Below are positions 3,212 through 61,187 of a stretch of 64,000 nt of DNA, piece by piece. The translations under genes were made by a program, and so were the position numbers. The first letter of the stretch is position 1; each line of letters starts with the position of its first letter. Origin of the DNA: Thermodesulfovibrio yellowstonii DSM 11347. Its GTDB lineage: Bacteria; Nitrospirota; Thermodesulfovibrionia; Thermodesulfovibrionales; Thermodesulfovibrionaceae. The DNA is taken from NCBI RefSeq assembly GCF_000020985.1, contig NC_011296.1, forward strand, positions 124,001 to 188,000. The letters run 5' to 3'. The notes under the pieces are model-generated. The model was not told the origin of the DNA and did no database searches. It saw nothing but the letters and a program-made list of their open reading frames with translations.

Positions 3212-5142
3212 TTTACTGGCAATTCCACAGTAAAAGTAGTACCTGATGAAGAAGTTTTAACAAGAATTCTTCCACTATGTTGTTCTATAATAGATTTACT
3301 CACAGATAGTCCAAGACCTGTTCCCTGTCCAACTGGTTTTGTTGTAAAAAATGGGTCAAAAATTTTTGGTAATATATCATCAGGAATACCATTGCCTGTG
3401 TCAGTAAATGCAATATAACATTTTCCATTTTTCAGAAAACTCTCTATAGTTAGAACTCCTTCTTTTCCATCCATTGCCTGGATAGCATTAAGCACGATAT
3501 TTAAAAATACTTGTTCTATTTTATTTGAGTCAATCATGATTTCAGGAATCTCGTTAGATAGCTTTTTTATGACTTTAATCCCTTTTTTAGAGATAAGATA
3601 GTCAGTTAATTTTAAAACATTTTCTACAAGATTATTAACAGAGACAGCTGAAATTATAAGCTCTGTTTGTTTTGAAAAATCAAGAAGTTGTTTTATTATT
3701 TCCTGAATTTTTGTAAGTCCGTGATTTATAACCTCAACATGCATATTTTTTGTTTTTTCATCCATCTCAGTGTTAATCAAATTATTAAAACAAAGCCTTA
3801 TTCCACCAAGCGGATTATTGATTTCGTGAGCTAAACCTGCTGAAAGCTGTCCGATTGCTGCAAGTTTTTCTGTAATCCGCATCTGTTCTTCAATTTTTCT
3901 TTTCTCTGTAATATCTTTGACATAGTGAACTACTTTTATTACATTTTCTCTGTCATCAAAAATTGGATAAAGATGAATAAAATAGTGTCTTTGGTCTTCA
4001 CCTTCCCAGTATTCTGAAAACGGTTTTTTCGTGTCTATTACTTTCTTGAGAAAGTAGACAGGACATAGTTTGTCTGCATCAAGCTTTTCAATATCGCATT
4101 GTTCATTAAATACAGCAGCTCTGCCTTCTATCATCCATGTTCTATAGGCATGATTTGTCATCTCAACAGTACAATCAGGATTCACAAGTGCAAGAGGGTC
4201 TGTTATTCCTTCAAATATTGTCTGTAGAGTATCTGCATATTTTTTCGTAGCTTCCTGAGCATCATATAAATACTTTGCCATTTGATTAAATGAAAGAATT
4301 AAATCACCAATTTCATCTTTTGTTTTTACTTCAATGGTTTGATTTAGAGGTTCTGTTCCATTTACTATTCCTCTGAATAAAGAACTCAATCTTTTGAGTG
4401 GTTTAATGACAAAGCTCCAGAAAGCACCATGGAGAGTGACAAAAAGAAATAAAAGAGAGACAGCTCCAAAAAGAAATGTTGAAATAGCAACACCTTTTAT
4501 CTCTCCTAAGGTAGAAGCAATTGGAAGAGAGACTGATTCAATTCCCATGATATCGCCTTCTTTCCATGTAAAGTCCTTGGAACGAGGAAACATTTTAAGT
4601 AAAGCCTTAGGAGCGTTGTTAATCTTTCCATGACATATTAAACATCCTTTTTCAACAATAACAGGTTTTGCCATCACGAGTATTTCTTGCCCATTATATG
4701 TAATAATTCCACTCCATGATTCTTGAGTTTTATTTCTCTTAAAATACTCTATTAATTTGACATATAATGCATCAGCTTTATGTTCTGGATTAATAGGGTC
4801 TAAAGAAACTCTTTTATACATGTAATTTCCTATTTTATTGTTGAATCTTTTCATTACACTTAGCCTTACATGAGTTGTTGACATCCCTTCAACGATAAAT
4901 TCATCTTTTTTGCCAGTTTCATAAAGAAGTTTGAAAATCGCGGGTCTTAGTTCTTCTTTAACATAATTACCAAGTGCATCAATCTGTGTAATAATAATTC
5001 TTGTTTTTTCGTTTGCATCTTCTATTACTTTTTGTTTAAGGTGATAGTAAAGTAAAAAAGAAAACAATATACAGAAAGCCAAAATTATCAAAATGATTGA
5101 AAGCGTGAACTTTGTGCTTATTGAAAGATTTTTGGGTTTCAT
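3208..5142 (-). CDS. Membrane sensor histidine kinase with c-type haem sensor domain
   Basis: This is a 644-residue kinase. Transmembrane helix 1 (about 12-34) is followed by an extracytoplasmic domain holding one haem c attachment motif, CLICH (C167, C170, H171), in the style of the DUF3365/Tll0287-like sensor family. Helix 2 is at about 215-240, then HAMP (about 241-300), PAS (about 302-415), HisKA with H439 (GLAHEINNPLGG) and a C-terminal HATPase (DTGNGIPDD, GTGLGLSVSKSI). Covalent haem outside the membrane suggests sensing of redox state, O2, NO or CO. It is translationally coupled to the NtrC-type regulator. No Shine-Dalgarno is visible. TATAAT overlaps the ATG on the minus strand, so the true start or promoter is uncertain. 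Confidence 0.92.
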   Translation of the reverse strand: MKPKNLSISTKFTLSIILIILAFCILFSFLLYYHLKQKVIEDANEKTRIIITQIDALGNYVKEELRPAIFKLLYETGKKDEFIVEGMSTTHVRLSVMKRFNNKIGNYMYKRVSLDPINPEHKADALYVKLIEYFKRNKTQESWSGIITYNGQEILVMAKPVIVEKGCLICHGKINNAPKALLKMFPRSKDFTWKEGDIMGIESVSLPIASTLGEIKGVAISTFLFGAVSLLFLFVTLHGAFWSFVIKPLKRLSSLFRGIVNGTEPLNQTIEVKTKDEIGDLILSFNQMAKYLYDAQEATKKYADTLQTIFEGITDPLALVNPDCTVEMTNHAYRTWMIEGRAAVFNEQCDIEKLDADKLCPVYFLKKVIDTKKPFSEYWEGEDQRHYFIHLYPIFDDRENVIKVVHYVKDITEKRKIEEQMRITEKLAAIGQLSAGLAHEINNPLGGIRLCFNNLINTEMDEKTKNMHVEVINHGLTKIQEIIKQLLDFSKQTELIISAVSVNNLVENVLKLTDYLISKKGIKVIKKLSNEIPEIMIDSNKIEQVFLNIVLNAIQAMDGKEGVLTIESFLKNGKCYIAFTDTGNGIPDDILPKIFDPFFTTKPVGQGTGLGLSVSKSIIEQHSGRILVKTSSSGTTFTVELPVK

Positions 5143-52633: not shown

Positions 52634-55600
52634 TCAAACTGCAATCTTTTTTTCTGGAAGAGGCTTTGAAAATAAAAATCCTTGAACAAAGTCGCAGTCC
52701 ATTGTTTTTAAAATCGTAAACTCTTTTTCTGTTTCAACTCCCTCTGCTAAAGTCATTTTTTCAAGTTTTTTAGCAAGACCTATTATTGTTTCAACAATTG
52801 CAAGACTTTTTTTATCCTCAACCATATCTTTGATAAAACTTTTGTCTATTTTTACAATATCAATGGGTAAATCTCTAAGATAACTCATTGATGAATAACC
52901 TGTTCCAAAATCATCTATAGCAATTTTGGGTGGATTTTTCATTCGTTTTATATCAGAAAGAATTTGCATTGTATACTCGGGATTATTAATAAAAATTCTT
53001 TCTGTAATTTCTATTGTAAGTTTATTTCTTATTTCCGATGTAATTTCTGACAGAATAGGTATAAGAATTGGATTACTAAAAGTTTTTCCTGAAATATTAA
53101 GAGAAATATTTGTACCCCACTTTTTTATTTTTTCAGTGACTTCATTGATTGCCCAATTTTCAAAACTGCTTAGATATTGACTATTTTCTAAATAGTCAAT
53201 AAAGAAATCAGGAGTATACAGTTTTCCATCTCTATCAATAATCCTCACAAGAGCTTCAAATCCTGCAATTTTTAAAGTTTTGGTATAAAAGTATGGTTGA
53301 TAATAAAAGGTAAACAGTTTTTCTTCTGAGGCTTTTTTAATTAAATTAAAAACTTCCCATAGTTTTTCAGCTTCTTTTTCAATCGCAGCATCAAAAAACT
53401 GAATTATCCCAGACCCTGCTTTTTTAGTTTGCTGTAAGGTAATATCAGCTCTTTCATAAAGGGTTTTAAAACTTTTTCCATCCTTTGGGAAAATAGAGAT
53501 CGCTGCATTAATATTTATGGAGATAATTTTAAGATCGCTGCATTAATATTTATGGAGATAATTTTATTATCTATATTAAAAACAGAGTTATTTAATTCAT
53601 ATAATTTAGAGTAAGCTTTGTATATATCATCAGTGGTTTCTGCAATTAGATAAATTCCAAAGCTATCAGCAGCTATCCTTGCTATAGAATCAGTATTTTC
53701 AAAAGATTTTTTTATTTTCTCTGCAAACTGTATTAAAATCTGGTCACCGGCATGAATGCCGTGAATTTTGTTTATATAAGTCATATCATAGATATCTATA
53801 AGAATAAGCAATCCAAAAACATCAGTTTCATTTAATTTTTGAGATACATTTACTGTAAATCCATTCATATTAAGAAGACCTGTAAGAGCATCATAGTTTT
53901 GAAGTCTTTGCACTCTTTCAGAAAGTCTGATTTTTTCAGTTACGTCTCTTGCAACAGCAACAAATCTAAGAATATTACCAGGAAGTTTTACTGGAATAAT
54001 TTTTAAATCTACATGGAAAATTTCTCCATCTTTTTTTCTGTTCGGTGTAATTGCATTAAAAATTTTACCAGAAAGAATAGTATCCCACAGTTCTTTATAA
54101 AACTCTGGAGGATTAAGTCCTGATTTAAATATTCTCGGATTTTTTCCGATGAGTTCCTCTTTGCTGTATCCACTAATTCTTTCAACAGCTTCATTGACAT
54201 AGATAATATTCCCATTTTCATCTGTAACAAGTATCCATGTATCAGAATTTTTAAGTGCTTCTGCAATGATGGTGTTATGTCTTATCCTTTCAACTCTTTC
54301 AAGAGCAAAAGCAATATCATGTTGAATCTCTTTCAGTATATCCAGGTTTATTTCATTAAAAAATTGTGGAAACTCTGAATAAATATTTAGAAATGAAACT
54401 ACTTTGCCATATTTAAAGAAAGGAATTATACATGATGACCTGAAGCCTGTTTTAGTATATTCTTCTGATTCCGAGTTTATAACAATTTCACCTTTGACTG
54501 ATGCACTATCAAGTAAACTATTTAGCATTCCGTAATCAAAATTATCTAAAATGCTTCTATCATCAGCATAAGAATATTCAGGAATAATTCTGTTGTTTTG
54601 CTTATCTAATATACCTATCCATGCAAGTTTTAAATTCAATTTTTCCACAAGAGTTTTACAGATTCTGCTATATATCTCTTCTTCAGTTAGTGATTGGGTG
54701 ATTATTTTATTTATTTCCATCAGAATTTCTTTGAATTTTTCCGCATATTTTTTTGAAGTAATGTCATAAAAAACTAAGAACCCTGAGTAAAGACCTCTAA
54801 AAAGTATGGTATTGGCAAGACATTCAACAAATATTACAGAGCCATCTTTTTTCTGAAAACGGATATCATATATTCTTGAGAATTTTTCACCTTTCAGTCT
54901 TTTTTTGATACTATCAATAACTTTTTCTCTATCTTCGGAATAAACTATATCAGTAATGCTCATATTATAAAGTTCATTCTCTGAATATCCCAGCAAAGTT
55001 CTCATATAGTCATTGCAAAATGCTATTTTTTCATGATAAATAAGGACACCAATATTTGGTGAAGAGATTAAAGCTTCTGAAATATCATGATGAGCCCAAT
55101 CCTGAAGCATTATATCAAGCTGATTATACAGACTTTTTAAATTTTCAATTTCTTCAGAAGACACTTTTTCAAAATCTTCAATAGAAAGCAGTTCATTTCT
55201 AAAATTTTCCATAGAAGAATTCATAAGTATAAAATGAGAAATAGGAAAGCAAAAATCATTTGAAAAAATTAATGCTCTGTCGTCCTTTAGTCTTTCTGAA
55301 ATTTGAGTATAAATAAAACCTATGTCAGCTTGCTGTTGTCTGACAAGATTAATAACTTCATCATAGCTTTTTACAAAAAGAATATGAAATTTCTTATATT
55401 CTTTCTTATGGAACAATAGAGGAAGAAAAAAATATTTCTGATTTATTAAAGCTACCCTGATTATATCTTTTTCAGAAAAGTAAGATTGTGAAAATATACT
55501 ACATAAACTTTCATTTTTATTTTTGAGTTTACTTAGTACTGCATAGCCTTTTTCAATAAGGGTAATGGTAGTATCTGGATTAGCATAGTAAAAATCATAA

Positions 55601-55761
55601 CTTTGCTCATTAAAACATATTTCTGAAAAATCACTAAATCTTTTAAGTCTGATTTCTTTTTTTATAATCTTTGAGATTTTATTAGCAATTTCACCCCATT
55701 TAACTAATTCTTCTTCTGTACAGTGAGGACATAGAGCAAAATATAAAACATTTTCTGACAT
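52634..55761 (-). pseudogene. PhnD-like/PAS/GAF/GGDEF/EAL signalling protein, broken by a 35-bp tandem duplication
   Basis: Two frames, 55761-53515 (748 codons) and 53248-52634, are parts of one protein. Removing one copy of a perfect 35-bp tandem repeat joins them into 1,030 codons. Order: a cytosolic PhnD-like binding domain (about 1-210, with CPHC at residues 11-14), PAS (about 220-340), GAF (about 345-490), PAS (about 500-615), GGDEF (about 620-790), EAL. The GGDEF motif is degenerate (AADSF), so cyclase activity is unlikely. The EAL part keeps FEALVR, EITER, DDFGTGYSS and EGVET, fitting an active c-di-GMP phosphodiesterase. In the present state the first frame ends with ILKLSP, before the end of GGDEF. 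It starts 1 nt after the MCP gene stop. Confidence 0.88.
53497..53566. repeat. Perfect 35-bp tandem duplication inside a coding region
   Basis: Positions 53497-53531 and 53532-53566 are identical over all 35 bases (start AGATCGCTGCATTAATATTT). As 35 is not a multiple of three, it shifts the frame of the GGDEF-EAL gene and produces an early stop. The coding sense of one copy reads through to the normal GGDEF ending (INAAISIFPKDGKSF). Confidence 0.95.
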
Positions 55762-55762
55762 A

Positions 55763-56638
55763 TTAAAACTTTGTCAGCTTGGAAATTTCATCATTAACTT
55801 TAATCACTGTAGAGAAAACCTTATAGGTTTCATTAAGCATAGATGCAGTATTTGTAATTCTTTTTGAAACGTCTGTTAAAACCTGACTTTGTTCTTCAAT
55901 AGCAGTTGAAAGAGTGTTTACCGCATCACCAACTGTATCTGACATGGTTTTTGTTTTTTCAAAGGATTGTCTTATATTTTTTATGTCCTCCTCTATACTT
56001 GAAAAGAGTTCTCTTATTTTTTCAACCTCTCCTACTGCAGAGATAACACGGTCTTTAAGATCACCAAGAATTTTACCTATATCTTTTGTTAAGGCTTCTG
56101 TTTTCTGAGAAAGTTTTCTTATCTCATCAGCTACAACTGCAAAACCTCTTCCAGCTTCACCAACCCTTGCTGCTTCAATTGAGGCATTAAGAGCAAGAAG
56201 ATTGGTTTGGTCTGCCACATCTGAAATAGCTGTTACAACATTACCAATATTCTCTGTAGCATGTCCCAGGTCTTTTATATTGGTGACAACCTCAATAATT
56301 TTGCTATTATGAGCTTCTATGTCCCTTACTCTCTTTTCTAATTCTTGATCCATTGCTTCATTCTGAATCACCATTTCCTTAACTTCTTCATTAATTGAAG
56401 CAACACTCTTAGACATGTCTCTTATAGTTGTGTCTATCTCTTCCATGGCAGTTGCTATTGAGGATACTTCATCTTTTATTCTTGTAAAGTTAGAGTCAAT
56501 CAGTCCCATTGTATTTGAGATTGTTGAACCTACAAGATTTGATTTTATTATTCCCGAAGATAGAGTTTTAATGAGAGAAAGATTTATATCAACCATTTTT
56601 TTGCTGTCAGAACTAATTTTCTTTTTTCTAAAAAACAT
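55763..56638 (-). CDS. Soluble methyl-accepting chemotaxis-like protein
   Basis: This 291-residue cytoplasmic protein has no membrane helix. It is essentially an MCP signalling domain, with a helical hairpin and tip sequence [20 protein letters not shown] and [19 protein letters not shown]. The N-terminal 60 residues are a short unassigned stretch ([19 protein letters not shown]). It would bind CheW and CheA, but no che genes are in the window. It sits 12 nt after the ODP-like diiron gene and 1 nt before the GGDEF-EAL gene. A strong AGGAGG site precedes the ATG. Confidence 0.9.
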
Positions 56639-56650
56639 TATAGCCTCCTC

Positions 56651-57439
56651 CTATCTGTAAAATTCATCTGCAATGTCTACACCACATCTTAAACCACTTA
56701 GCCAATTAAAAAATTTCTGAATGTGTTCTTTTTTATAGATGATAGCTCCATGCTGTGGTGCAATTATATTGATGTCAAGCTTTGATACCCTTTCAAGATA
56801 TTTTCTTACTACACTATTTGAAGCAAGGTATCTACGATGGAATCCTTTCATAAGTTTAAGATGACTGTCAAAGTCTTCAACATAAGTATATCTATGACCT
56901 TTAGGAAATATGGCTGCACCGAGGTCTCCTGTAAACAAAATTTTTGAACGAGGATCATAGACATGAAAGTTTGCTACAGAATGAAGGAAGTGGGCAGGAA
57001 TTATCTCAAGATAGTCTCCAGTTGGAAGACTAATTCTGCCTCCGCCTTCTTCTATTGGAACAATTTTATTCATATCAAAAATCCCATAATGAGGAAGGAA
57101 TCTTACCCACCATTTTGATATGTAAACTTTTGCATTTGTAACACTGAGCCAGAGGGCAACACCTGAAGACACATCAGGGTCCTGATGGGAGAAAAATAGA
57201 TGCTCTATCCTTTCAAGGTCTACATATCTTGAAACATTGGCAACAACTCTTGGGAAAACATGAACTCCTCCAGGATCAAGAATGACACCAACTCCTTTAT
57301 TTTCTATTAAATACTGATTAACCTGAACAAGCCCTTCTTCTTCATGCTCTTCCCATCCAAGCCATATAAATTTATGTGTTCCATCATCATATAGAGTATC
57401 ACCTCTTACAATATCAACTTCCTTGTTTAAGATAGGCAT
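56651..57439 (-). CDS. ODP-like oxygen-binding diiron protein (metallo-beta-lactamase fold)
   Basis: This 262-residue protein has the flavodiiron beta-lactamase fold without a flavodoxin domain. Ligands: H85-x-D87-x-D89 (SHQDPDVSSG), H153 (HFLHSVANF), D172 (FTGDLGAA) and H230 (APQHGAI). The HxDxD spelling in place of HxExDH is that of the ODP subgroup, shown in Treponema denticola to bind O2 or iron and to signal to the chemotaxis kinase CheA. It lacks its own FMN domain, so it is a sensor, not a reductase. GGAGG precedes the ATG. An MCP-like gene follows 12 nt downstream, which strongly suggests sensing of O2 for motility. Confidence 0.85.
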   Translation of the reverse strand: MPILNKEVDIVRGDTLYDDGTHKFIWLGWEEHEEEGLVQVNQYLIENKGVGVILDPGGVHVFPRVVANVSRYVDLERIEHLFFSHQDPDVSSGVALWLSVTNAKVYISKWWVRFLPHYGIFDMNKIVPIEEGGGRISLPTGDYLEIIPAHFLHSVANFHVYDPRSKILFTGDLGAAIFPKGHRYTYVEDFDSHLKLMKGFHRRYLASNSVVRKYLERVSKLDINIIAPQHGAIIYKKEHIQKFFNWLSGLRCGVDIADEFYR

Positions 57440-57492: not shown

Positions 57493-60144
57493 CTATTGTG
57501 GTAAAGCTTTTTTATTTCTGAAGGCTCTAATCATGTTTGCATGGTGATAGTTTCCTTGCATTTTAACTCTATGACATACCTCACATTTCATCTCAGAAGA
57601 TATTGGCATAGGAGTTCTCTGATACTGTATAGGCTGAATATTATCTCTGTTTTTGCCATACTCATTGAATGATGGATAGGTTGCATGGGGAGAACTATGG
57701 CAGGCTATGCAAGGAATTTTTCCTGTGTTATCCTTTTTATTTCTATAAAGTTCTGACACATCAATAGTCCATTTATTGAAAGCTTTAACATTTTCTTTGG
57801 GTTTCTGGAATCCTACATGGCAGTTGAGACAATCTGGTTGTTGAATCCATGATTTCCTCTGCGTTATTTCGGATATTAGTGTTTCAGGCTTAAGGTTTCT
57901 AAGCAATAATTTAGATGTTCTTGTTCCCTGCTGGGAAAGAAGTATAGAGGAGGCATGTTCATCAAGTTTTCCATGACATTGGGTGCATCCGATTCCTAAT
58001 TTTGCATGTATATCTCTGTTGCATCTTGTATTACCTTTTGCATCATTAGGATGGCATAGGTTGCAGGCTCTTTCGTCTTTCCATGGAATGTAGTTAGCAT
58101 GCCAGCCATGCATAGATGCTGAAAAGCTGTTATGTCCCTTTACTCCCTCTGATTTCACAATAAAGTCCTCATGACATTTCTGGCACATCTGAGGTTTACC
58201 TTTAAGGGCAGATTCAAGAAGTTTTGTTCCATTATTTCTGTCATGAACCCTTAAAATATTTATTGCTGTTTCATCAGAGATTCCTGAAATACCTCTCCAT
58301 CTTGGTTTTCCTCCGTGACACTCAAAACATTTTAATTCTGTTGAGACAGGTGCAACAAACTTTGTAGTCTGAAGAATTTTACCAGTTGCTTTTTCAACTG
58401 CCTTTATTTCAAATATAGGATAAGGATTAAATACCCCATCATCTCTGTAAGGCAGAACTGGTATGCCTTCAGCAGAGAATATTTTTTTGTCCTTATCATA
58501 TTCAAAGACTCCTTTAAGAGCTTTGCCAGTAAGTCCAACATTTTCAGGTATCTTTTTACCTTTAAGAGATTGGGAATACTTCCAGAAATCTGAATGCATT
58601 GATGGGTTTTCGTATCCTTTCTGAACTTCATAGTGAATCTCTACTCCTTCAGAGATAATCTCTGGTTTTTTCCCTCTTTTTATAAGTATTGCTTGAAAAG
58701 AAGAGCCAGGATAAAGAAAGGAAAACCATTTGTCTGAATCAGTAACACATTTCTCACCAAGACTGCTCCATGCAAGAAGCACATATTCATCTTTTTGACT
58801 ATCAAAAGGTGGTATGGCAATATCCTCTTTTTTGGGTTTAAACTCTGTTAATTTTGTCTCTTTATCTCCATGAAGGCTAACAATAAATGTTGCCAAAGCT
58901 TTCATTTCTGTTTCATTACCGATGAATTTGGGCATATAGTCAAGAATTTTACCCTGTCCATAAAGCTGTGAAATTACCCCTAAATATGTGAGACCCTTTG
59001 TTTTTTCAACTATATCATTTTTAACTCCTTTTATTGTGTGGCAACTAAGGCATTGAAGATTAAATAACTCTCTTCCTGCAATTAGTTTATTTTCCTCTGT
59101 GACTTCTCTGATAGTAGTCCATTTAGCATTTTTGAGGAATCCTTCCTTGTTTAGCTTTTTTTCATCAGCTACCATTATTGATGGCGAATACATATATCCA
59201 TAGATTACATATGGTTTTCTTGCATACTCTCTCATGTATTCAAATCCTGCCATCCATAAAAGCCCCACCAAAAGAAGAATAAAAACAGCAATTCTATGTA
59301 GCAACTTTGATGCTCTAAAAACTAAAATTAAACTTAAAAGATAAAGTATCACTGAGGCTGTTATAAATACATTTACCGCATTAGCTGTCTGTTTGTTAAG
59401 CATGAAGTTTGTAAGTCTTGCATTTTCAGGAATGGAGTAGAAATACCAGAGTCCTGAAATAATAAGAAAAGGCAGAGGAATATAAAGCCATTTTACACAG
59501 TATCTAAGGAATTCCTGCCTCAGCTTATCTTCTTTTTCAAATACTGCAGTAACAAATCCGAATAGTCCTGCAAACATTATGCAAATTGCGGTTCTAAATA
59601 CAAGTCCTGGGAGATTAGTTGGATTAAAAAATCCATCCCAGAAACTATGTGTTCTAAGCCATTGTCCAGGAGTAAGCATAAATGTAATGATACCATTGAT
59701 TACAAAGAGACTTAGCCATGCTGAAGCAGCGTATATAAAGGCAATTCTTAAGCGATTTTTATCTGAGAGTGTTTCAAACTTGTAGTGATAAATAAGTAAA
59801 GAAACAATTTCTACAATAAAAAACACCCACTCAATTGCCCATGCAAATACAAAGGTATGAATAAGAAGAGAAGTAGCCCAGGGACTTGAAAGAGCTATTA
59901 TAAACCATATCCCAACACCTGTTACACCACCAAAAACCATTGTAAGTAATAAGAAAAACCAAACATGTTTACGGACATACTGTCTTAGTGATATATTGCC
60001 TTCCCGAACACTTTTAAGGTCTGTAAGCCAAAGAAATATTCCACCGCCAACGGCAAAGTGAGAAATAAATACATGAAACACTGCAATTATTGCAACTAAA
60101 GTGCCTGAATTAAAGTAGTAAAGTTCCCATACAGGATAATTCAT
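57493..60144 (-). CDS. CydA-like membrane cytochrome fused to an eight-haem c-type domain
   Basis: This is an 883-residue protein. Residues 1-300 hold about eight membrane helices resembling CydA of bd oxidases: H24/H29 in helix 1 (VFHVFISHFAVGGG), the AIEWVFFIVEI stretch with E105 and E112 matching the CydA proton-path Glu pair, and a closing REYARKPYVIYGYM that mirrors the CydA GRQPW...YG segment. The position of the b558 histidine (H186 in E. coli CydA) appears to be arginine (R184, VFRTA). Eight CxxCH motifs follow, at residues 365, 606, 654, 694, 720, 772, 812 and 854; the first lies in a mono-haem domain. No Q-loop is visible. Coupled by ATGA to the upstream partner subunit. Confidence 0.85.
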   Translation of the reverse strand: MNYPVWELYYFNSGTLVAIIAVFHVFISHFAVGGGIFLWLTDLKSVREGNISLRQYVRKHVWFFLLLTMVFGGVTGVGIWFIIALSSPWATSLLIHTFVFAWAIEWVFFIVEIVSLLIYHYKFETLSDKNRLRIAFIYAASAWLSLFVINGIITFMLTPGQWLRTHSFWDGFFNPTNLPGLVFRTAICIMFAGLFGFVTAVFEKEDKLRQEFLRYCVKWLYIPLPFLIISGLWYFYSIPENARLTNFMLNKQTANAVNVFITASVILYLLSLILVFRASKLLHRIAVFILLLVGLLWMAGFEYMREYARKPYVIYGYMYSPSIMVADEKKLNKEGFLKNAKWTTIREVTEENKLIAGRELFNLQCLSCHTIKGVKNDIVEKTKGLTYLGVISQLYGQGKILDYMPKFIGNETEMKALATFIVSLHGDKETKLTEFKPKKEDIAIPPFDSQKDEYVLLAWSSLGEKCVTDSDKWFSFLYPGSSFQAILIKRGKKPEIISEGVEIHYEVQKGYENPSMHSDFWKYSQSLKGKKIPENVGLTGKALKGVFEYDKDKKIFSAEGIPVLPYRDDGVFNPYPIFEIKAVEKATGKILQTTKFVAPVSTELKCFECHGGKPRWRGISGISDETAINILRVHDRNNGTKLLESALKGKPQMCQKCHEDFIVKSEGVKGHNSFSASMHGWHANYIPWKDERACNLCHPNDAKGNTRCNRDIHAKLGIGCTQCHGKLDEHASSILLSQQGTRTSKLLLRNLKPETLISEITQRKSWIQQPDCLNCHVGFQKPKENVKAFNKWTIDVSELYRNKKDNTGKIPCIACHSSPHATYPSFNEYGKNRDNIQPIQYQRTPMPISSEMKCEVCHRVKMQGNYHHANMIRAFRNKKALPQ

Positions 60145-61187
60145 TTCTTAGCCTCTTTTGTTTTTGAGAAAGTAATTTTGAGCATATAGGAAATGACAGC
60201 TATCCCTAAAAGCAGTATAACTAAGAATATGGTAAATACATCCCACTGGGGTGAGAGCTTTAGCTGAGAGATATTAAAATTTTCACCTAAATGAAAGACT
60301 CTTAAGTTATATCTGTTTATAACCATAAAAACTAAAGTAAAGAACACAAGTAGCACACTGCCTTTAAGATTAGCCTTGAGGGCGATAAAAATAGACAAGA
60401 ATGCAGTAATAATACTCAAAATAAACACAACTGTTGCAAATAAATCTCCTCCAATATATTTCTGCATAATGTTCTGTGGGAGGCTTAAAATAAACCAGAA
60501 ACCAATAGCAATCTGAAACATTGTGGCATAGGCAAAGATTTTTAAGCCCTCTCTAACTTTATCTTCAGAGTTTTTCCTAAAGTAAAGGCTATATGCAATG
60601 CCACCTACTGCTATTGAAGCTATTAGGAAATGTAAAAATCTTGGATAGATGCTTGCCACATTCCAAAGTAGTATAGTTCCACTTCTATTTGAAAAATAAG
60701 TTTCCCACCTTTCAGGCATTTCCATCATGGACAGATTATTTACAAGTATGAAGGCAATATAAAAAATTATGATAATCATAATAATCAAAGCATACTTTGC
60801 AAAACCTGAAACTTCAAATTTTTTGTAATGAAAATAAGAACTATAGTAGGCAATAATTAAAAAAGGTATGATTAAAATCCAGAAAGTTCCCATGAGTATT
60901 GAACTCGTGTAGAAAAGATGCCCGAAGACAACCTGAAGAAAAAGCAGCGTAGGAATAGCCATATTTATTCCAAGAGCAAAAAGAATGGGTATTTTTTTAG
61001 CCAGAGGTTTGTTTATTATAAAAAAATCTTGTTTTTTATCCCATTGATAAAGAATTATCAGGCTTAGTCCAACAATTGAGTTAATGATAATAATATGTAT
61101 GAGGAAAAAAAGTTGTTCAAGAATAATAAAAATTTCTGCAGGTGCAGGAATTGGTTCAGTGTAGGGTATTAAATATAATGGATTCAT
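60141..61187 (-). CDS. Membrane subunit of the CydA-like cytochrome (second bd-type paralogue)
   Basis: This 348-residue protein has about nine hydrophobic helices and no haem c motif. H31 in helix 1 (FFLIHIIIINSIVG) and H186 in YPRFLHFLIASIAVGG sit where bd-type subunits carry haem-b histidines. By contrast the Glu pair and GRQPW-like motif seen in the fused subunit are absent. I use the ATG at 61187; an upstream in-frame TTG at 61226 overlaps the predicted promoter. It overlaps the fused subunit by ATGA, so both form one complex. No conventional cydB is present. Homology to CydA is weak and judged by eye. Confidence 0.72.
   Translation of the reverse strand: MNPLYLIPYTEPIPAPAEIFIILEQLFFLIHIIIINSIVGLSLIILYQWDKKQDFFIINKPLAKKIPILFALGINMAIPTLLFLQVVFGHLFYTSSILMGTFWILIIPFLIIAYYSSYFHYKKFEVSGFAKYALIIMIIIIFYIAFILVNNLSMMEMPERWETYFSNRSGTILLWNVASIYPRFLHFLIASIAVGGIAYSLYFRKNSEDKVREGLKIFAYATMFQIAIGFWFILSLPQNIMQKYIGGDLFATVVFILSIITAFLSIFIALKANLKGSVLLVFFTLVFMVINRYNLRVFHLGENFNISQLKLSPQWDVFTIFLVILLLGIAVISYMLKITFSKTKEAKK

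Follow-up and report, generated by a model that had tools for sequence, protein, structure and literature searches.

An octahaem CydA-like protein and its CydA-like partner in Thermodesulfovibrio yellowstonii: a probable cytochrome-c-fed oxygen reductase of the bd superfamily

A gene pair in Thermodesulfovibrio yellowstonii DSM 11347 encodes a cytochrome bd-like membrane protein fused to eight c-type haem motifs, which raises the question of where such a protein takes its electrons from and to which acceptor it passes them. The pair lies in the window, the whole stretch of 64,000 nucleotides that was analysed (contig NC_011296.1, positions 124,001 to 188,000); the host genome is a single contig of 2,003,803 bases. 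The gene for subunit 2 (60141..61187, 348 aa) precedes that for subunit 1 (57493..60144, 883 aa) with a 4 bp overlap, both on the minus strand. Subunit 1 has three parts, all on that strand. The membrane part (residues 1 to about 325, 59170..60144) is assigned by structure match, by PF01654 in relatives and by alignment with CydA. It is followed by a mono-haem class I cytochrome c (residues about 350–425, 58870..59095; C365–H369 and M404) with matches to cytochrome c6; PF13442 is found in 43 of 45 relatives. The C-terminal periplasmic module (residues about 440–883, 57493..58824) consists of a beta-rich linker and seven further haem motifs, and the MtrC/MtrF domain II/IV profile is matched by 33 of the 45 relatives.

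The eight CxxCH motifs have their first cysteines at positions 365, 606, 654, 694, 720, 772, 812 and 854. Exactly eight are present in 68 of the 72 subunit 1 relatives with a reading frame that no contig end interrupts; of the four that deviate, three appear to have broken frames. The count of eight given in the earlier note, made from the letters alone, is thus confirmed. A chance origin of the eight motifs is ruled out by this conservation.

As single queries against Pfam, NCBIfam and the PDB the window proteins gave no CydA match, so profiles and models were needed for the assignment. The window's own subunit 1 does not match PF01654; 27 of its 45 relatives do (best E-value 3.3e-15), and a subunit 1 profile picks up Geobacillus CydA at 4.5e-6. 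Profile-profile comparison links subunit 1 both to CydA (E 1.7e-7) and to subunit 2 (E 3.5e-10), and in some loci BLASTP alone joins the subunits; for subunit 2, profile-profile comparison is the only sequence link to CydA (E 9.9e-6). AlphaFold models, built from 45 homologues of subunit 1 and 46 of subunit 2, have mean pLDDT values of 89.6 and 93.5, and the top matches of both among solved structures are cytochrome bd subunits. Subunit 1 superimposes on CydA of bd-II with Z 30.9 (314 residues, 3.1 Å) and subunit 2 with Z 26.3 (328 residues, 3.5 Å). The NrfD chain of polysulfide reductase reaches 15.2 against subunit 1 and 13.8 against subunit 2, and NrfD-like chains of alternative complex III score 15–18. 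The models and profiles support a CydA fold for both subunits and their paralogy to each other. The subunit 1 model has eight long membrane helices, which bears out the earlier count of about eight with CydA-like landmarks, as does residue conservation. An NrfD- or CbcL-type membrane part, the alternative for which the earlier note had proposed a structural check, is ruled out by NrfD scores far below those of CydA.

The partner of subunit 1 is a CydA-like paralogue and not CydB, its best structure matches being CydA chains. The absence of cydB noted previously holds for the locus but not for the genome, which has an ordinary cydAB elsewhere (about 1264364–1266700; L001 1486–3815). A di-haem peroxidase-like ORF stands before that cydAB, and an Rrf2-type regulator-like ORF behind it.

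In Escherichia coli cytochrome bd, H19, E99 and E445 are ligands of the active-site haems, H186 and M393 are the ligands of haem b558, and K252 and E257 are the quinol residues of the Q-loop. These positions were mapped on 59 aligned sequences of the superfamily, and conservation was taken from 45 subunit 1 and 46 subunit 2 sequences. H24, E105, E112 and E306 of subunit 1 align with H19, E99, E107 and E445 and are invariant; all three active-site haem ligands therefore have their counterparts, and the Glu pair (E105/E112) is kept as had been proposed. R184 and the R-E-x-A-R-K/R-P-Y ending (E306, R309, P311) show little or no variation. The b558 histidine, which the earlier note saw replaced by R184, is indeed lost from subunit 1, but two independent alignments place F183 in its column (F, or Y/L, across relatives). 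R184 is the adjacent residue, and OR-N rows also have Arg there. In subunit 2 the same column holds His in 13 of 14 sampled rows, and H186 is found in 45 of the 46 sequences of the larger alignment; H31 is invariant and the Glu pair is missing, again as first described. The M393 column has no Met in either subunit among the sampled rows, which leaves the low-spin haem of subunit 2 uncertain. The b558 pair that marks subunit I of the quinol oxidases (qOR) is thus represented in subunit 1 by F183 and a residue other than Met. The candidate haem ligands of the two paralogues are complementary across the family, as had been suggested; a b558-type His confined to subunit 2, with the O2-site ligands in subunit 1, argues for an O2 reductase built from two CydA-like chains.

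The Q-loop is missing from both subunits, with gaps at K252 and E257 in every member sampled, and this counts against the quinol-linked complex first envisaged. The c-type haems have candidate ligands of their own. M404, invariant in the 45 sequences, fits His/Met ligation of the mono-haem cytochrome c. The seven C-terminal haems are probably all bis-His, since there is exactly one further invariant histidine for each of them (634, 679, 682, 713, 820, 867 and 868).

Canonical cytochrome bd (qOR) resembles the pair in its CydA fold, in the equivalents of H19, E99, E107 and E445 in subunit 1 and in that of H186 in subunit 2. The pair differs in having neither Q-loop, quinol residues nor CydB, in not holding the b558 ligands in one chain and in its C-terminal c haems. 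There is also a likeness to OR-C, reportedly described by Murali, Gennis and Hemp in 2021 as CydA homologues that carry a fused cytochrome c but lack a quinol site. Both features are found here, and the pair probably belongs to OR-C. We know of no description of the 1+7 haem form within it. In cytochromes caa3 and cbb3, too, electrons enter an O2 reductase through fused cytochrome c domains; this is an analogy, as both belong to the unrelated haem-copper superfamily.

The bd superfamily includes the non-quinol CydA families OR-C and OR-N beside qOR (PMC10839748), and two-CydA complexes with a proposed cytochrome c donor are reported from nitrite oxidisers (PMC10839748; PMC12342949). The OR-N CydAA' proteins of Nitrospira and Nitrospinota share with the pair two CydA paralogues, missing quinol residues, the proposed donor and the Arg after the b558-His position. 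They differ in keeping that His in the subunit that carries E112, and the OR-N sequences examined have no fused multihaem module. One Nitrospirota locus (L139 1962–5672) has an alternative-complex-III-like operon followed by short CydA paralogues of 408 and 440 aa, an arrangement reported for OR-N5 (PMC12342949).

In a phylogenetic tree, for which no root was inferred, subunit 1 and its mono-haem relatives form one clade (100/99), apart from both canonical CydA (100/100) and OR-N (98/93); it is a third clade beside qOR and OR-N and does not fall within the latter. Subunit 2 forms a clade of its own (100/100), and branching within the two subunit clades largely agrees, with one long row (P2mono_L143) of unsure placement. 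Pairwise distances of the two subunits correlate with r = 0.89 over 64 loci, a value that may partly reflect shared ancestry. The octahaem two-CydA architecture is a variant within a known superfamily. The earlier remark that no described complex has this exact plan is borne out in that neither a description nor biochemistry of an octahaem CydA fusion was found in the literature searched, which excludes the superfamily-defining paper; it needs qualifying in that OR-C, OR-N and the two-CydA complexes are known.

The phylogenetic search proposed in the earlier note found the two-gene block conserved, at 435 loci in one scan of species genomes. Taxon spread and gene order are described here from the best 80 of the 435 loci. 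These include Thermodesulfovibrio, Thermodesulfobacterium, Bacteroidota, Calditrichota, Ignavibacteria, KSB1, Gemmatimonadota, Verrucomicrobiota, Spirochaetota and many sulfate reducers; the named ones that share about 80% protein identity belong to Thermodesulfovibrio. Subunit 2 lies immediately 5' of subunit 1 in nearly all of these best 80, with identical spacing in 51 pairs. It is found in 13 of the 14 Thermodesulfovibrio genomes listed, the one without a match being 72% complete, so that the octahaem form can be counted among the core traits of the genus. In the rest of the order a subunit 2 homologue occurs in only 9 of about 107 genomes, and its partner in those examined is a mono-haem subunit 1 of 436–451 aa.

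Homologues of the seven-haem part, with 7–8 haems, are also encoded as free-standing cytochromes in other Nitrospirota. Four such 7-haem relatives (L149 5348–7219, L150 1555–3462, L151 6140–8092 and L154 7032–8693) are each followed by a small ORF of about 130 aa that is NTF2-like or lipoprotein-like. At a locus in a Geobacter MAG (L100 7755–10430) three class I cytochrome c domains replace the 1+7 haems, and the next gene encodes an octahaem cytochrome of the tetrathionate reductase family. The C-terminal module is exchangeable on a constant membrane pair, because one c haem, three class I domains or 1+7 haems occur. Such variation is as expected of an electron-entry module.

The genes downstream of the pair provide clues to the acceptor. 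The next gene, 53 bp downstream of subunit 1 (56651..57439, minus strand), encodes a metallo-beta-lactamase-fold protein of the ODP family (PF19583, E 1.1e-75), a di-iron O2-binding family; at least five relatives in Thermodesulfovibrio have this gene in the corresponding place. An MCP chemotaxis-type signalling protein follows (55763..56638, minus strand; PF00015, E 2.2e-36), in relatives too. It has no evident membrane helix and is likely a partner of the ODP protein. The last gene encodes a PAS/GAF/GGDEF signalling protein (53515..55761, minus strand), and this order is kept in relatives. The five genes form a probable operon, as the gaps between them are short. Near its end a frame change (53491–53563 of the window) splits a PAS/GAF/GGDEF-EAL gene into minus-strand genes at 53515–55761 (GGDEF, 748 aa) and 52634–53248 (EAL, 204 aa). 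Relatives have a single ORF of about 920–930 aa; the split may be real or a sequencing error.

Besides the ODP, MCP and GGDEF genes downstream in Thermodesulfovibrio loci, a flavodiiron protein is encoded close upstream in seven loci of sulfate reducers and relatives, and hemerythrin, bacterioferritin, peroxiredoxin (in one locus) or canonical CydAB adjoin other members. These O2-linked neighbours are recurring and not universal; the surroundings differ from locus to locus, and at many loci no gene linked to O2 adjoins the pair. Their presence in separate lineages counts in favour of O2 reduction. In eight loci (L033 at 4476–4916, L034, L036, L038, L039, L044, L047 and L052), mostly from Bacteroidota, Calditrichota and KSB1, the gene immediately before that of subunit 2 encodes a PsiE-family membrane protein of about 145–160 aa.

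We therefore consider it probable that the two CydA paralogues together form an O2 reductase of the bd superfamily in the membrane, and that cytochrome c, not quinol, supplies its electrons. A cytochrome c donor fits better than a quinol-linked one, because the Q-loop and its Lys and Glu are missing from both subunits. The electrons would come from c-type haems of the periplasm, such as those that hydrogenase or formate dehydrogenase reduces in sulfate reducers, and enter at the seven probably bis-His haems of subunit 1. The His/Met cytochrome c of that subunit would receive them next and probably hand them on to a haem b bound by H186 of subunit 2, from which they would reach a pair of high-spin haems at H24, E105 and E306 of subunit 1. 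O2 would be reduced to water at this site, with protons drawn in past E112. This scheme infers haem occupancy and complex formation as well as O2 as the substrate and the direction of electron flow. The likely use of the pair is removal of O2 during brief exposure.

The earlier note had left O2 and an outward acceptor side by side, and the O2-related neighbours favour the former. An outward route, close to that note's interpretation, would make the pair a menaquinol:multihaem-cytochrome oxidoreductase which oxidises quinol and sends electrons out through the eight c haems, as CbcL and ImcH do. The MtrC/MtrF matches and the octahaem cytochrome beside the Geobacter pair are in keeping with this. 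It is opposed by the missing Q-loop and quinol residues, by the O2-linked neighbours and by O2-site ligands that are invariant though quinol oxidation does not need them. NrfD-type proteins bind quinone without a Q-loop, and we retain outward transport as an unlikely reading because the pair may hold a different quinone site. Less likely still is that the di-haem site, fed by cytochrome c, reduces another small molecule, NO or peroxide. The flavodiiron proteins encoded nearby are similar to flavorubredoxin NO reductases, NO is a substrate of flavodiiron proteins as well, and the single peroxiredoxin would suit peroxide; the ODP, hemerythrin and canonical CydAB neighbours point instead to O2, and the di-haem ligands match those of the O2-reducing superfamily. 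Reverse transport from periplasmic cytochromes to quinone, as proposed for some bd-like proteins of the nitrite oxidisers Nitrospina and Nitrospira (PMC3578206), is very improbable in a pair that is missing the quinol residues and whose hosts, mostly anaerobes, have other ways of making reduced quinone.

Quinol is the electron donor of every bd oxidase that, to our knowledge, has been characterised by experiment. More tentatively than the cytochrome-c-fed reading itself, we propose a bd-superfamily O2 reductase that is wired directly to a chain of periplasmic haems and divides its sites between the CydA paralogues, one having the O2 site and the other the low-spin haem. Through it anaerobes might reduce O2 with cytochrome c electrons that derive from hydrogen or formate, and do so without quinones. 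The family is large and has kept its O2 site; besides sulfate reducers it takes in Bacteroidota and further groups that are mostly anaerobic. The pair is present in cultured Thermodesulfovibrio, Thermodesulfobacterium and Desulfogranum, and the proposal is therefore testable. If true, there would be a second way to feed a bd enzyme, in which an eight-haem c-type wire replaces the quinol site, and strict anaerobes could have a means of removing O2.
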